Positions 5,792 to 12,352 of a stretch of 64,000 bases of DNA are shown piece by piece (the first letter of the stretch is position 1; the number at the start of each line of letters is the position of its first letter). This DNA is from Enteractinococcus fodinae (GTDB taxonomy: Bacteria > Actinomycetota > Actinomycetes > Actinomycetales > Micrococcaceae), in assembly GCF_031458395.1 (NCBI RefSeq), contig NZ_JAVDYJ010000001.1, positions 62,001 to 126,000 on the forward strand, in the 5' to 3' direction. Under the pieces are notes generated by a model, which was not told where the DNA came from, did no database searches, and saw only the letters and a list, made by a program, of their open reading frames with translations. The translations under genes were made by a program, and so were the position numbers.

Positions 5792-6376
5792 TCAGTGTTT
5801 AGTCTTGCGCAGGCTCAATCGATATTGCTCTGGGTCGCGCTGCAAATAGCCGGCGATTTGATCGACGAAGGGTTGCATCAGTACCTGGCCGAGTTGGACC
5901 AGCATGACTTGCATGACCTGGTCTTCTGCTTCGCGGGCCGTCGAAGCGATCCCGTGTCGACGCAGATCTTTAATCTGCCGTAATGCCATGCGGGTGAACC
6001 GCTCGGTAATGTCGGAACCCTCTCCATTGCCCTCGATGAGCATCATGCGCCGCAGATAGGCGGCTACCAGCGGGTTCGCGTCGATATGATCCATCAGCCG
6101 CTGATCGAGTTTCTTGACGACCCCGTCCACGGTAGCGTCGGTTTCTTTATATTCGATCGCTTTCTGAATGCCGTTAAGTAAATCATCCTCCACGGCCTGA
6201 ATCAGCCCAGCTTTGGTGCCAAAATGATGCGTAATCAGCCCCACGGTGACGCCAGCGCGTGACGAGATGGCGCGCATTGAGGTGGCGTCGGCTCCGTTGA
6301 GCGCAAAAAGCTCCAGGGCCACCTGACGAATGCGGGCCTTGGCGGTCAAATCGGCGTTAAGATCGGCTGTCGGCAT
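5792..6376 (-). CDS. TetR family transcriptional regulator, divergent from etfBA
   Basis: A 194-residue TetR-type protein. The N-terminal HTH (~14-58) reads RIRQVALELFALNGADATSM, then ISSRAGVTVGLITHHFGTK, the canonical TetR recognition helix region. The C-terminal ligand domain is unclassified. It starts 136 bp from etfB on the opposite strand. The divergent region holds the repeat TTGTAC-N8-GTACAA and two copies of TACGGTAT, plausible operators. TetR regulators beside etf genes often respond to acyl-CoA or fatty acids, but no ligand can be read from the sequence. Confidence 0.85.
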   Translation of the reverse strand: MPTADLNADLTAKARIRQVALELFALNGADATSMRAISSRAGVTVGLITHHFGTKAGLIQAVEDDLLNGIQKAIEYKETDATVDGVVKKLDQRLMDHIDANPLVAAYLRRMMLIEGNGEGSDITERFTRMALRQIKDLRRHGIASTAREAEDQVMQVMLVQLGQVLMQPFVDQIAGYLQRDPEQYRLSLRKTKH

Positions 6377-6451: not shown

Positions 6452-6471
6452 TTGTACGGTATATTGTACAA
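6452..6471. promoter_or_regulatory. Putative TetR operator in the etfB-tetR gap
   Basis: TTGTAC-N8-GTACAA is a perfect inverted repeat with 6-bp arms. It contains TACGGTAT (6455-6462), which recurs at 6392-6399 nearer the tetR start. It is placed to control both divergent genes. Binding is inferred. Confidence 0.5.
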
Positions 6472-6511: not shown

Positions 6512-7282
6512 ATGAAAGTCGTAGTGCTAGTGAAGCAGGTGCCTGACACCTATGAGAAACGCCAGATCGCGTTGGATACCGGCCTGTTGGCTCGGGAAGC
6601 ATCCGAAAATGTGGTCGATGAAATCGACGAACGGGTCTGTGCTGTCGCGGCCGATCTGAAAAAAGACGGGACTGCGACCGAGGTCGTGGCGGTGACCATG
6701 GGTCCTGCTGACGCGGATAAAGCCATCCGGAAGGTGCTAGCACTGGCAGCAGATCGTGCCGTTCACGTGGTCGATGACGCGCTGGCAGGGTCGGATATGG
6801 TCCAGACCGCCCGCGTATTGGCCGAAGCGGCCAAAGACGCCGACATTATTTTGTCCGGTGCCGAATCCACCGATGGTCGCGGCGCCATGGTCCCAGCGAT
6901 GATCGCTGAAATCTTGGGCCGTCCACACATCGTGGGCGCGGACTCGATCGAGATTGCCGACGGGACGATCACCGGTGTGACCAACACCGAAACCGAAAAA
7001 ATCACGCTGTCGGCGACGACTCCAGCGGTCGTATCGCTGACCGAAAAGGCCGGCGAGCCAAAACTGCCAAACTTCAAAGCCATCCGTGAGGCCAAGAAGA
7101 AAGAAATCGCCGTAACCTCACTTGCTGATCTCGGTATTTCGGCCGGGCCAGATGCCGCGTATGTGCGTAACGTGATGGTTTCTGCCGCAGAACGCCCGCC
7201 GAAAGAGGCCGGCCAGAAGGTCTCGGGCGATACCGCTGCCACTGAACTTGTCGACTTCCTTGCCCAACGGCACTTGATCTAA
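6512..7282 (+). CDS. etfB: Electron transfer flavoprotein beta subunit
   Basis: A 256-residue protein of normal EtfB size. It begins [16 protein letters not shown], and includes [16 protein letters not shown] and the conserved [18 protein letters not shown] segment of the AMP/FAD-binding region. The ATG at 6512 is chosen over an upstream GTG at 6485 because GAGGTGGAC supplies a Shine-Dalgarno and family homology begins at MKVVVLVKQ. With EtfA it forms the soluble flavoprotein that accepts electrons from acyl-CoA dehydrogenases. It is followed by etfA after 13 bp and by a membrane cytochrome b, suggesting a three-gene operon. Confidence 0.95.
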
Positions 7283-7295
7283 GGAGCTTTCCTAC

Positions 7296-8243
7296 GTGAC
7301 GAAAGTACTTGCTTTAGTAACGAATGCAGAACCCGCTGAAGTACTGGGTGCCGCCTCAATCGTTGGCGACCCCGTCGCCGTGGTCACCTCGACTCCCGAT
7401 GCCGAGACCATCGCAGCGCTGGGACAGGCCGGGGCCACCGAAATCTTTGTACACACCGGTCCAGAGGATCAGTTCGGTACCGCCGACGTCGCCGCCGGTG
7501 TAGCTGCTGTAAAACATTACGGCGCGTCACTGCTGCTCATGGCACATGGCCCGGTCAATGCCTCCTTTGCCGGTCGTATTGCCATCGCAGCCAAGGGCGC
7601 GGTCGCCGCTGATGCCACCGGGTTGTACTGGGATGCTGACGGCCAAGAAACCGTCGTCACCCACTCGATTTTCGGTGGCGACTACAACACCGAATCCACC
7701 GTCGAAGGTGGGCTGATGATCGCCACCCTGCGTCCCGGCACGATCGATACCCGCGCCGCAGCTGTTGCTGAACCTACCGTGGTGAACTCCGATGTTGAGG
7801 TTCAGACCGGCCCAGGTGCCACCATCGTGTCGGCCGAAGAGGTTGAGGCCGCTTCGGACCGCCCAGCCCTGACCGCTGCCTCAGTCGTCGTCTCGGGTGG
7901 TCGCGGTCTAGGTTCCGAAGAGAACTTCAAACTCGTCGAGGACCTGGCTGATCAATTCAATGCCGCCATCGGTGCCTCCCGTGCTGCTGTCGACTCCGGT
8001 TACGTGCCGCACAACTTACAGGTTGGACAAACCGGTGTTTCGGTTTCCCCGGATCTCTACATTGCGGTAGGAATTTCCGGTGCGATCCAGCACTTGGCTG
8101 GTATGCAGACCGCCAAGACCATTATTGCCATCAACAAGGACGAAGACGCCCCAATTTTCGATGTGGCTGACTTCGGTGTGGTGGGTGACCTCTTCGAGGT
8201 CGTGCCAAAAGTTGTTGATGAAATCCAAGCCCGTCGAAGCTGA
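7296..8243 (+). CDS. etfA: Electron transfer flavoprotein alpha subunit
   Basis: A 315-residue EtfA. The GTG start at 7296 follows AAGGAG with good spacing. The C-terminal FAD domain carries the family signature, with [14 protein letters not shown], then [15 protein letters not shown] and VGQTG, followed by [11 protein letters not shown] and [10 protein letters not shown]. EtfA binds the catalytic FAD, and the heterodimer passes electrons to an ETF:quinone oxidoreductase in most organisms. The next gene, 5 bp downstream, is a membrane cytochrome b rather than an ETF-QO. Likely partners in this window include the acyl-CoA dehydrogenase at 41007-42224. Confidence 0.95.
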
Positions 8244-8248
8244 TATTT

Positions 8249-10066
8249 ATGTCTAAACGTCGAATGGTCGGATGGCAGCCGTTGGCCGTCGAAAACCCCG
8301 ACGCGCCCACCGCTGCCCCAGCACCAGCTGCACCCCAAGCGGCCCCAGAGCCTGCACAAACACCGGCACCTCAGCCAGAGCACACACCGGCCGCTGAGCA
8401 GTCGGCTGCAGCCGCTGCTCAAGCGGCTCCGGTTGCTGACGGGCCGCCACAAGACCCCAACGTGCCGCGCCGCCGCATGGCCGGTTGGCAGCCACTGACC
8501 GTAGCCAATACGGCAGGTCCGGTTGCGCCAGCCGCTGCACCGCAAGCGTCGGCACCCGCCCCAGCTGCGGAATCGGTTGCCCAACCCGCTGATGCGGCAG
8601 AGCAACCTGCTGCTGAACCGGTTGCGTCGGGTCCGATTCAGGATCCCAACGTGCCGCGGCGGCGGATGGCTGGTTGGCAGCCGTTGTCGGTGGCTCGTGA
8701 TGGTGCACCAGCTGCTGCGGCCCCAACCGCAGCACCCGCGGCGGCAGCCCAAACTGCGGCTGCTGCCGAAACACCAGCTGTTACTGAGCAGGCCACCCCG
8801 GCTGCTGCGCAGGCGGTACCGGTCGCTCCAGCACCGGTGACCGAGGACTTACCACGGCGACGCATGGATGGGTGGGAACCGCTGAAGGTGGGCCACCCGG
8901 ATACCGCCGAGGCGATTGCTCCACAGCCTGACCCTGCTTCGGCGGCCGAAGAGCCGACCCCGGCACCGGTCGCCGAGACCGCACCGGCTGCTCCGCGACG
9001 TCGAATGGGCGCCCCAGCGGCCAGCCAGGAGTCGGCACCTGCTGCTGAGCCGGCGGTAAAGACCCCAGAGGTAGTGACGCCCGAACCGGCGAAACCCGCA
9101 GCCAAGACCGAGGCCGCACCTGCTGGTGCGTCCGCGCAGAAGCCACCGAAGAAGGAAATGTCGAAGGTCACCAAGGTCGTGTTGACCTTGTTGGGTGTGG
9201 CCGTGGTCGCCGCCGGGCTGGTCCTGATCGCCCAGTGGGTGCGCGGACTAGAGCCCGTCTCTGAGTTCATCGCGACCTACGACGGGACCCCGACCCATCC
9301 CGATGGGGTTGAGCCCGGCATCCCGGCCTGGGTGGGCTGGCAGCACTTCTTTAACTTCTTCATCATTGTCATGGTCATCCGCTCCGGACTCTTGATTCGG
9401 AATCAGGAACGCCCCGAAGCGTACTGGACACCCAACGATGGTGGATTTTTCTCACCCAATAAGAAGAACTCCCCGCAGAAGGTCTCGATCCAGCAGTGGA
9501 TCCACCAAAGCTTCAACGTGTTGTGGGTGGTCAACGGGCTGATCTTCTACATTATGGTGTTCGCCACCGGGCACTGGATGCGCATTGTGCCGACCAACTG
9601 GGACATCTTCCCCAACATCGTCTCAGCTGGCCTCCAGTATCTATCGTTGGACTGGCCGGCCGAGAACTCGTGGGTGTATTACAACGCGTTGCAGATCATG
9701 ACGTATTTCATCACGGTGTTCATCGCCGCCCCCATCGCGGTGCTCACGGGGCTGCGGTTATCGACGTGGTGGCCGCAGAAGGCCGAAGGCATCAACAAAG
9801 TGTTCACCTTGCCGGTGGCTCGGAAGATTCACTTCTTCACGATGATCTATTTCATTCTGTTCATCATCGTCCACCTGTTCCTGGTATTTACCACCGGGGT
9901 CTTGCACAACATGAACATTATGTTCACCGCCCGGGATGCTAGCGACTGGTGGGGCATCGCCGTGTTCGCACTGTCGGTGGCCGTGACCGTGGGGGTGGCC
10001 TGGCTGATCAAGCCGATCTTCATCTCCCCGATCGCCGAAAAAACCGGAACGGTGTCAACAAGATAA
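8249..10066 (+). CDS. Cytochrome b (b561-like) membrane protein with repeated GWQPL-motif Pro/Ala-rich tail
   Basis: A 605-residue protein in two parts. Residues 1-300 are Pro/Ala-rich and low complexity, punctuated by a repeated basic motif: KRRMVGWQPL (~3), RRRMAGWQPL (~74 and ~137), RRRMDGWEPL (~203) and a decayed RRRMG (~250). Residues ~308-595 are membrane-embedded. They contain one leading helix and a cytochrome b561/formate dehydrogenase gamma-type four-helix core with candidate haem ligands H366, H419, H528 and H542; the last pair is H-X13-H in one helix. It lies 5 bp after etfA and is followed by a terminator. Electron transfer from EtfBA to quinone is inferred. The tail probably faces the cytoplasm and could dock the flavoprotein. 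I know of no described function for the tail. Confidence 0.8.
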   Translation: MSKRRMVGWQPLAVENPDAPTAAPAPAAPQAAPEPAQTPAPQPEHTPAAEQSAAAAAQAAPVADGPPQDPNVPRRRMAGWQPLTVANTAGPVAPAAAPQASAPAPAAESVAQPADAAEQPAAEPVASGPIQDPNVPRRRMAGWQPLSVARDGAPAAAAPTAAPAAAAQTAAAAETPAVTEQATPAAAQAVPVAPAPVTEDLPRRRMDGWEPLKVGHPDTAEAIAPQPDPASAAEEPTPAPVAETAPAAPRRRMGAPAASQESAPAAEPAVKTPEVVTPEPAKPAAKTEAAPAGASAQKPPKKEMSKVTKVVLTLLGVAVVAAGLVLIAQWVRGLEPVSEFIATYDGTPTHPDGVEPGIPAWVGWQHFFNFFIIVMVIRSGLLIRNQERPEAYWTPNDGGFFSPNKKNSPQKVSIQQWIHQSFNVLWVVNGLIFYIMVFATGHWMRIVPTNWDIFPNIVSAGLQYLSLDWPAENSWVYYNALQIMTYFITVFIAAPIAVLTGLRLSTWWPQKAEGINKVFTLPVARKIHFFTMIYFILFIIVHLFLVFTTGVLHNMNIMFTARDASDWWGIAVFALSVAVTVGVAWLIKPIFISPIAEKTGTVSTR

Positions 10067-10232: not shown

Positions 10233-10673
10233 ATGAAGACGGCGCCGAACCTTGTGCTTGCCATCATCACCGGATTCGTAGTGATCGTGGCTATCCTCGC
10301 TGCGATTTTCGCCTCCCGGGATATGGCACCCGACTGGCCCGATGATTCCCCCGAAGCCACCGTCCAGGCATATGTCCAAGCGGTCATCGACCAAGACTAT
10401 GCCCAAGCGATCACGCACCTCGATCCGAGCATGGAGTGCACCCCCGAAGACTTGGCACAGTCCTATTATCCACAAGACACTGCCATGTCCCTACTCAAAG
10501 CCCATATCGGCCCAGATGAGGCTACCGTGAGCGTTGAGTTCGGCAGCTATAGCGAAGCCTTCACCGACCCGTTTATTGGTCAAGAACAGTTTGAACTAAT
10601 CCCGGATGACACCGGCGGGTGGCTCATCACCGGCACGCCGTGGCCGATCTACAGCTGTGCGGGGACCCTATGA
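10233..10673 (+). CDS. Membrane-anchored protein of unknown function
   Basis: A 146-residue protein with one N-terminal transmembrane anchor (~7-28) and an extracytoplasmic domain of ~115 residues. The domain begins SPEATVQAYVQAVIDQDYAQA, a helical pattern like NTF2-fold/DUF4878-type lipoprotein domains, and contains two cysteines (~70 and ~142). The NTF2-like assignment is tentative. Its stop overlaps the next start (ATGA, 10670-10673), so it is translationally coupled to the large membrane protein downstream. It is preceded by a good promoter and no Shine-Dalgarno. Confidence 0.6.
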   Translation: MKTAPNLVLAIITGFVVIVAILAAIFASRDMAPDWPDDSPEATVQAYVQAVIDQDYAQAITHLDPSMECTPEDLAQSYYPQDTAMSLLKAHIGPDEATVSVEFGSYSEAFTDPFIGQEQFELIPDDTGGWLITGTPWPIYSCAGTL

Positions 10674-12352
10674 TTATCAGCGTATTACTGCTGGCGCTGC
10701 TCGTCGGTGGCGTCGGATTCATCGGCACCGCATCACGACGACTCCAAGGCCAACCGCTTAGCGGTCAGATGTTTCGGCGAGCTTTCCAATACGTACTGCT
10801 CTACGTCCTGGTCTTGATCGTTGCGAACGGCGCCGTGGACCTACTGGGCCGCGTCTTCGGTTCCAGGGCGATTGGGGATGATGGTTTTCTGTTCGCCCAG
10901 TCGCTGACCGCTATTGTTATTGCGTTACCCATCGCAGTCTTGTTGAGTTGGTGGATCTACCGCACGCATCGTCGTGACCCTCTCGAGCGGGAGTCGTTGC
11001 TCTACCAGGCCTATCTGACCACGGCGGCGCTGACCGGGGTCGCCATGACGGCGGCCAACCTCCAACAAACCCTCACCACCGCGATCGGGTCCCAAAACCT
11101 CAATGCCGAAGCACTGGTCGGTGTCGCCATCTGGGCAGCGGTATGGGCGGTGCACTGGCGCATCATCGAACGCAGCCTCACGGTGCCCAATACGGTAGCG
11201 CATGTCCTGTTGGGCTGCACTATCGGATTAGTACTGGCTGTAAGTGGGCTGATCGCCCTGTTGGCCACATCGCTCGAGCTGTTGACTGGTCCAGAGATCA
11301 TCATCGGCCCCTATGTTGGTCTCGGTGCGGCAGCGGGCATGTTCGTCAGCGGAGCCGTCATCTGGAGTGTGTACTGGTTCGGTGCGGCGGCCAAACTCCC
11401 ACGCAACACCGCCTGGCATGCGTACGTCCTTTTACTGGGAGTGGCCGGTGGGCTGACCACCGCACTCTTCGGGACCCATGGACTGATATGGCACGGGCTA
11501 GTGCAGCTCATGGGGCACCCCGAGCTATTTACCGACTGGCTCAACTGGTCCACTGCGGTGGCCACCATGGTCATCGGGGCGACCGTGTGGTGGTATCACC
11601 GCACCATCCTGGATCCTGCCCAACGCTCCACGGTACAACGCGTGTATGAATACCTCACCGCGGGCATCGGTGCGCTGGCGGCCGCAGCAGGTATCGGCAT
11701 GCTGGTGATCTCTCTGATTGATGCGATCGCTCCGGCCTCCCTGTACTACCATCCGCTCAACACCCTGCTGGGAGCGCTACCCCTGTTCCTCATTGGCGCG
11801 ACAGTGTGGTGGCTGCACTGGCGGCGCATCCAAGCTCACGCAGATGCTGACCCCCAGACAGAGCTGACAGCCACCCCGCGGCGAATCTATCTGGTAATGC
11901 TCCTGGGCGGGTCGGGCGTAGCCGTGGTGATCGCGCTGATTTCCGGGGTGGTCGATATCGTCCACGACATAGGCCAGGGCTCCCTGAGCCTTGCCACACT
12001 GTATAAAGTGCGGATGGAGACCAGTTTTCTGGCTGCCAGTGCGGCACTGATCGCCTATCACGTTGCGATCTTGCGCCAGGACCAGCGGCACGGTCCTCTC
12101 AAGGCGCCCACACCGGTACGCCACGGCACCCTGACCCTGGTCGGTCCGGCAGACCCATCCCTTGAAGCAGACCTAGCCCAGCACATCACGGGGCCGGTTC
12201 GGTTGTTACCCGTGGAGGTCGCGGCCTCTTGGAGTATTGACGCGATTCTGGCCGCGTTGACCACCTATGACCCAGACGAAGATGTCGTGATCATTGCCCA
12301 CGAGCGTGGCATCGAAGCGCATCCGGCCCAGGCACTGCGCTATTTACATTAG
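10670..12352 (+). CDS. Polytopic membrane protein, probable DUF5671 repeats
   Basis: A 560-residue protein with about 14-15 hydrophobic segments and a ~95-residue soluble C-terminus. The ATG at 10670 overlaps the upstream stop (ATGA) and starts a clean hydrophobic N-terminus (MIISVLLLALLVGG); a longer in-frame start at 10619 would lie inside the upstream gene. Four helices end in related motifs: VWAVHWR, IWSVYW, VWWYHR and VWWLHWR. The spacing of ~95 residues implies tandem duplication of a four-helix-type unit, which I associate with DUF5671. The C-terminal soluble part (TLTLVGPADPSLEADLAQHI onward) has no recognised fold. Function unknown. It converges with dodecin, overlapping by 4 bp. Confidence 0.65.
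   Translation: MIISVLLLALLVGGVGFIGTASRRLQGQPLSGQMFRRAFQYVLLYVLVLIVANGAVDLLGRVFGSRAIGDDGFLFAQSLTAIVIALPIAVLLSWWIYRTHRRDPLERESLLYQAYLTTAALTGVAMTAANLQQTLTTAIGSQNLNAEALVGVAIWAAVWAVHWRIIERSLTVPNTVAHVLLGCTIGLVLAVSGLIALLATSLELLTGPEIIIGPYVGLGAAAGMFVSGAVIWSVYWFGAAAKLPRNTAWHAYVLLLGVAGGLTTALFGTHGLIWHGLVQLMGHPELFTDWLNWSTAVATMVIGATVWWYHRTILDPAQRSTVQRVYEYLTAGIGALAAAAGIGMLVISLIDAIAPASLYYHPLNTLLGALPLFLIGATVWWLHWRRIQAHADADPQTELTATPRRIYLVMLLGGSGVAVVIALISGVVDIVHDIGQGSLSLATLYKVRMETSFLAASAALIAYHVAILRQDQRHGPLKAPTPVRHGTLTLVGPADPSLEADLAQHITGPVRLLPVEVAASWSIDAILAALTTYDPDEDVVIIAHERGIEAHPAQALRYLH

Follow-up and report, generated by a model that had tools for sequence, protein, structure and literature searches.

The stretch of DNA analysed here, referred to as the window, comprises 64,000 nucleotides of Enteractinococcus fodinae (Micrococcaceae; RefSeq assembly GCF_031458395.1, contig NZ_JAVDYJ010000001.1, positions 62,001 to 126,000 of the forward strand) and contains a three-gene operon in which etfB and etfA, encoding the subunits of the electron transfer flavoprotein (ETF), are followed by a gene for a b-type cytochrome with a long N-terminal tail. 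ETF-QO (ETFDH) and FixABCX carry electrons from ETF to quinone and possess their own FAD and [4Fe-4S]. The arrangement described here, etfBA with a tailed cytochrome, looks like a new kind of link between ETF and the respiratory chain.

The etfB-etfA-cytochrome operon

All three genes lie on the forward strand and have open frames: etfB (6512..7282; 256 aa; PF01012 (ETF), 3.8e-27), etfA (7296..8243; 315 aa; PF00766 (ETF_alpha), 3.9e-36) and the cytochrome gene (8249..10066; 605 aa; PF01292, 2.6e-9), whose cysteine-free product, for which structure models were made, is a proposed ETF:menaquinone oxidoreductase. An earlier note on this DNA had placed a b561-type cytochrome within 5 bp of etfBA, and both the coordinates, which leave a gap of 5 bp after etfA, and the PF01292 match agree with it. 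The solved relatives scoring highest with EtfA are human and Paracoccus ETF (1efv, 1t9g, 1efp), with the ETF of the caffeyl-CoA reductase complex (6fah) close behind.

Elsewhere in the genome, a single contig of 2.93 Mb, the gene order is repeated in a second cassette, identical to that of the window at 91% in EtfB, 84% in EtfA and 94% in the cytochrome domain, so that both etfA genes of the genome sit in such cassettes; the second is close to genes for an acyl-CoA dehydrogenase and an AMP-ligase (acyl-CoA ligase). A third homologue of the cytochrome b (L032:4911-6455, reverse strand) is fused to a domain that reads as a molybdopterin-type oxidoreductase.

Known ETF oxidases and co-occurrence with etfA

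The claim that no ETF-QO stands in the place of the cytochrome was borne out by profile searches: the ETF-QO domain PF05187 is absent from the window's genome and from all 395 sampled Micrococcaceae genomes (FixABCX was not searched for otherwise), and the same profile finds matches in 3 of 14 control genomes. EtfD, sought with a six-sequence alignment at E 1e-40, was likewise found in 0 of the 395; across the class, this alignment matches 171 of the 197 genomes searched, and of the 26 without a match the 20 listed take in the window's genome, one further genome (G017) and eight from a single other family in the order. An EtfD hidden in the window's genome was ruled out, the single CCG match lying in a 971-aa open reading frame that reads as an FAD/Fe-S protein without the membrane part of EtfD.

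Among the 395 genomes, etfA is present in 346 and the cytochrome (E 1e-30) in 262; 262 have both, 84 have etfA only, none has the cytochrome only and 49 have neither. The cytochrome thus occurs in 262/346 genomes with etfA and in 0/49 without. Copy numbers of the two genes rise together (Spearman 0.73), and among the 128 genomes with at least two etfA genes 41 have an equal number of cytochromes and 83 have one fewer, the cytochrome counts being lower bounds where only five candidates per genome were scored. No weight was given to the P values of this co-occurrence because the genomes are related.

A predicted disordered tail with repeated motifs

The tail (8249..9142, forward strand) is rich in Ala (31%) and Pro (19%) and is predicted to be disordered to about residue 272: AlphaFold2 confidence (pLDDT) stays under 50 over almost the whole of residues 1-272 and is mostly 74-95 from residue 301 on, with one block at 64. 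From the lysines that precede helix 1, the tail is putatively cytoplasmic. It carries four copies of a motif that fit (K/R)RRMxGWxPL, all on the forward strand, beginning at residue 3 (KRRMVGWQPLAV, 8255..8290), residue 74 (RRRMAGWQPLTV, 8468..8503), residue 137 (RRRMAGWQPLSV, 8657..8692) and residue 203 (RRRMDGWEPLKV, 8855..8890). The Pro/Ala-rich, four-copy tail described in the earlier note is therefore real, and it stands at the N-terminus. A degenerate copy, RRRMGAPAAS (8996..9025, forward strand), resembles the K-x-RMG form seen in other genera.

Not one copy of [KR]RMxGWxPL arose in 20,000 shuffles of the tail. As a DNA pattern the motif has seven matches in the genome, all within the tails of the two etfBA-cytochrome cassettes, which rules out a common genomic peptide; the backward control pattern has two matches. 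A Tat signal, and with it a secreted tail, was ruled out by reading, as no hydrophobic stretch follows the RR motifs. Within the genus, 35 copies occur in nine cassettes from eight genomes, at three to four per cassette and a spacing of 48-88 residues. The search expression itself prescribed R, M/L, G, W/Y, P and L/V, and the counts of motif conservation are to be read with part of the motif given in advance; where the choice was free, the second R was found in 35 copies, W and not Y in 35, L and not V in 35, M in 34 and a final V in 34.

A cytochrome domain with four invariant histidines

The membrane domain (9143..10063, forward strand) matches PF01292 (Ni_hydr_CYTB, prokaryotic cytochrome b561) at 37.6 bits against a cut-off of 30.1, and this is the sole Pfam family that the cytochrome matches. 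In an alignment of 57 sequences (that of the window and 56 from the 80-locus set described below), all of which match PF01292 at E 0.001, four histidines are invariant in 57/57: H366, H419, H528 and H542 of the protein, or H68, H121, H230 and H244 of the domain. Two of these are 14 residues apart, a spacing that is also found in formate dehydrogenase gamma, and the His ligands of FdnI underlie the four-histidine comparison. Judged from this pattern, the conserved histidines would be able to hold two haems b.

Cysteine is absent from 39 of the 49 tailed proteins checked, including the cytochrome of the window, and the remainder have one to three. Without cysteine there can be no ordinary iron-sulphur cluster, and electrons could therefore reach haem only directly from the flavin of ETF. 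Transfer from flavin to haem occurs in flavocytochrome b2 and in NADPH oxidase.

Distribution and variation of the tail

Relatives were drawn from 79 cytochrome loci, mainly of Micrococcaceae, and from a further 80 loci, the best 80 of 543 encoding a relative. The nearest include Enteractinococcus and Yaniella. The order etfB-etfA-cytochrome recurs across Micrococcaceae and in Microbacteriaceae; an ETF-QO elsewhere in the genome combined with an unconserved gene order, which the earlier note had named as evidence that would speak against its proposal, is thus not what we found.

Of 133 cytochrome loci, which are no random sample since some were chosen for long open frames and others sampled among short ones, 61 are tailed with the motif and lie behind etfA, 28 lie behind etfA and are untailed, and 44 are neither. 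The label 'tailed' required at least two motif matches and an etfA match, and the association of tail and etfA is therefore partly built into it. Unlinked rows with at least two motif matches were looked for separately, and L065 alone was returned; its 'tail' reads as an Arg-rich frame that overlies a different gene, so that it was discounted as an unlinked tailed locus and kept as untailed. Mapped on a 133-domain tree, the tail requires three changes against a shuffled mean of 43.8, one of the three being the mis-scored L067, whose frame holds three RQGLPR/RQGMPR copies and whose tail seems to start at TTG; it was untailed in the tree and later counted as tailed. The tree omitted L074 and L075, rows with identical domains and, by hand, L191, L205, L219, L225, L236, L251 and L256 (mostly at contig ends), of which L205 shows one K-TRMG copy.

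Several motif copies in a Pro/Ala-rich tail recur across lineages though the motif itself differs, and the first copy is usually near the N-terminus. Tails are found in Auritidibacter, Micrococcus, Citricoccus, Glutamicibacter, Pseudarthrobacter and some Arthrobacter, and among Microbacteriaceae in Leucobacter and Microbacterium. The lineage forms are RMxGYxPL, whose RMxGY core is present in 39 distinct copies; K-x-RMG, whose RMG core is present in 96; and RRGLPRxPGGEPWPP, whose RRGLPR core is present in 41, of which 35 have the W and 36 the P that follows it. A single motif, QRMxGYTxFRGxPWPP, is intermediate. The generality of the motif accordingly holds for the presence of several copies, which spans lineages, and fails for the exact GWxPL form, which among the loci fetched is limited to the genus of the window and its neighbour Auritidibacter.

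Two records labelled Sporosarcina and Akkermansiaceae (L201 and L242) carry Arthrobacter-like cassettes and are probably contaminated or misnamed assemblies. In Corynebacterium dentalis a cytochrome of the family (L215:5275-6852, forward strand) has a Pro/Ala tail with two PLKL stretches, and its locus has no etfA match.

Upstream region and neighbouring genes

A divergent TetR-type regulator (5792..6376, reverse strand; PF00440, 4.9e-15) precedes the operon. Between it and etfB lies a near-perfect palindrome, TTGTACGGTATATTGTACAA (6452..6471), a candidate operator that is the sole site in the window at two or fewer mismatches and is found on both strands. Because 11 of 100 shuffles matched this result equally well, support for the candidate comes from conservation of the core, TGTAC-N8-GTACA, which stands 5' of etfB in six of the nine cassettes of the genus and does not occur before the second etfBA-cytochrome cassette of this genome. 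Downstream of the operon, positions 10619-12352 encode a protein that reads as membrane-bound, with two DUF5671 stretches.

Discussion

In genomes that carry it, the cytochrome is the best candidate for an ETF:menaquinone oxidoreductase, and on balance we consider it probable that it is a cysteine-free, two-haem enzyme of this kind whose tail serves as a multivalent dock for ETF. The third gene of the operon would then do the job done by EtfD in mycobacteria and by ETF-QO in mitochondria. Acyl-CoA dehydrogenases would reduce ETF, which would dock on the short motifs of the putatively cytoplasmic tail, the several copies of which could retain two or more ETF molecules close to the membrane; electrons might then move from the flavin of ETF directly to a haem b on the cytoplasmic side, from where a second haem and a quinone site would deliver them to menaquinone.

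EtfD offers the closest parallel. In a report on the M. smegmatis protein, an invisible C-terminal disordered region of about 30 kDa with conserved interspersed repeats is described, and an AlphaFold 3 model suggests that ETF interacts through this region (PMC13083937); EtfB was co-immunoprecipitated with M. tuberculosis EtfD, according to a second report (PMC8593149). EtfD (Rv0338c / MSMEG_0690) would share with the cytochrome the proposed ETF-to-menaquinone job and membrane haem b (PMC13083937), as well as a tail predicted to be disordered and to carry short repeats, although only some EtfDs have such a tail. It differs in having two [4Fe-4S] domains, two CCG domains and a C-terminal tail, whereas the cytochrome is cysteine-free, matches PF01292, bears its tail at the N-terminus and lacks CCG and 4Fe-4S domains. 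Among 36 EtfD tails read by eye, 11 have evident repeats and the other 25 are either short or, where long, free of such motifs, figures that give no frequency because the second batch was partly picked for long frames. Seven tails, all from one family (f22), have KGLGIAxGAKRPGAKK-, KGFGM- or GGLKKPG-like repeats. Long tails from other actinobacterial families (L273, L276-L278) show GGSLFDL/I (three, from one family) or NAAPSWES (one, from a third). The motifs of the cytochrome and of EtfD appear to share a design; we do not claim homology between them, nor among the EtfD motifs.

Other systems resemble the cytochrome in part. EMO of Syntrophus aciditrophicus is an ETF:methylmenaquinone oxidoreductase with two haems b, as the cytochrome would be, and differs in holding an Fe-S cluster in addition (PMC8805022). 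ETF-QO is set apart by its domain, PF05187, which the window's genome lacks, the cytochrome matching PF01292 alone. The cytochromes b of formate dehydrogenase and NiFe hydrogenase share the family profile and the four-histidine pattern, but they are subunits of metal enzymes, whereas here the partner gene encodes ETF and a long repeat-bearing tail is present. CsoS2 and EPYC1 have multivalent scaffold tails in which several short basic motifs lie in a disordered chain; unlike the cytochrome, they are Rubisco scaffolds and no membrane redox proteins. A literature search over titles and the openings of abstracts revealed, among the matches listed, no description that we recognised as this system. 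It is conceivable, at slightly less than an even chance, that the cytochrome, drawing electrons straight from the ETF flavin, forms a class of ETF:quinone oxidoreductase of its own, the third and structurally unrelated to the others, and that multivalent tails arose separately on it and on EtfD as a shared means of holding ETF at the membrane, each with a lineage-specific motif and a matching ETF surface.

Several results weigh against an ETF:menaquinone oxidoreductase with an ETF-docking tail. The 84 of 346 etfA genomes without the cytochrome (E 1e-30) have neither the ETF-QO domain nor EtfD; another ETF acceptor must therefore exist there, the cytochrome is not the only acceptor of the family, and that other acceptor could serve the organism of the window too. 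The etfBA loci of two such genomes (L291 and L292) show no cytochrome match in stretches of 9 kb. The positive control for EtfD came from a separate search of class genomes and not from the family search. All ETF oxidases known to us rely on Fe-S or on their own flavin. Basic function does not require the tail, because the 28 etfA-linked and 44 unlinked cytochromes were scored as untailed, and the motif varies so much by lineage that a single conserved pocket on ETF is not evident. A change in the ETF surface that tracks the tail was sought and set aside: loci with and without a tail are set apart by two positions in EtfA and six in EtfB, which is too few and confounded by shared descent. These EtfB positions include K196, L204 and M222, which presumably lie in or after the region that holds the recognition loop in human ETF. 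Foldseek returned no significant match for the full-length model, nor for the domain-only model, which is better (pLDDT 87.7, pTM 0.82); hydrogenase-1 cytochrome b (6g94) came only at rank 7 (E 3.6, TM 0.55 on the target), and no sequence relative of the cytochrome was found among solved chains. The ETF-to-quinone link proposed in the earlier note is partly supported: it gains from the gene order, the failure to find ETF-QO or EtfD, the motif copies, the four histidines and the EtfD precedent, and is weakened by the etfA genomes that lack the cytochrome.

Alternative explanations differ in what they take the tail or the haem to serve. The cytochrome could oxidise ETF on its folded part while acyl-CoA dehydrogenases, or other enzymes of beta-oxidation, are bound by the motifs of the tail to form a membrane metabolon; since 28 etfA-linked cytochromes are untailed, ETF contact may not need the tail, and the second cassette is near acyl-CoA dehydrogenase and acyl-CoA ligase genes. 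We regard this as unlikely, given that the published EtfD precedent suggests that what such a tail binds is ETF and that the sole unlinked row with motif matches (L065) was discounted. The tail might instead be a tether without a protein partner, its basic Trp motifs folding back onto anionic lipids, as an Arg-rich genus motif with Trp in 35/35 copies would allow; the K-x-RMG form, with no aromatic among its common residues, and the acidic SLFDL motif of some EtfD tails fit this poorly, and we give the idea little credence.

It is distinctly improbable, if a little less so than a lipid tether, that the cytochrome serves some other electron partner, such as a molybdenum enzyme, and that its place behind etfBA reflects co-regulation only. 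Relatives do serve other enzymes, to judge from the apparent molybdopterin-type domain fused to L032; against this stand the lack of the cytochrome in all 49 genomes without etfA, the failure to find either an ETF-QO domain or EtfD that could serve ETF instead in the 395 genomes, and a Pfam scan of ten neighbours of four unlinked copies (three neighbours matched nothing), which detected no molybdenum partner. Reversed flow, in which the cytochrome would pass electrons from menaquinol to ETF to drive a reduction, finds a precedent in the reverse use described for EMO in syntrophs (PMC8805022), yet the second cassette has genes of acyl-CoA use in its vicinity and EtfA scores highest with human and Paracoccus ETF, and we hold it to be very improbable.

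For the Micrococcaceae in which neither ETF-QO nor EtfD was detected, the gene provides a concrete candidate for how electrons from fatty acids and amino acids are fed into respiration. If oxidation of ETF by the tailed cytochrome is confirmed, it would mean that ETF can pass electrons from flavin to haem without Fe-S clusters, and the unexplained repeats in the tails of EtfD would become one case of a wider principle, the multivalent docking of a mobile electron carrier.

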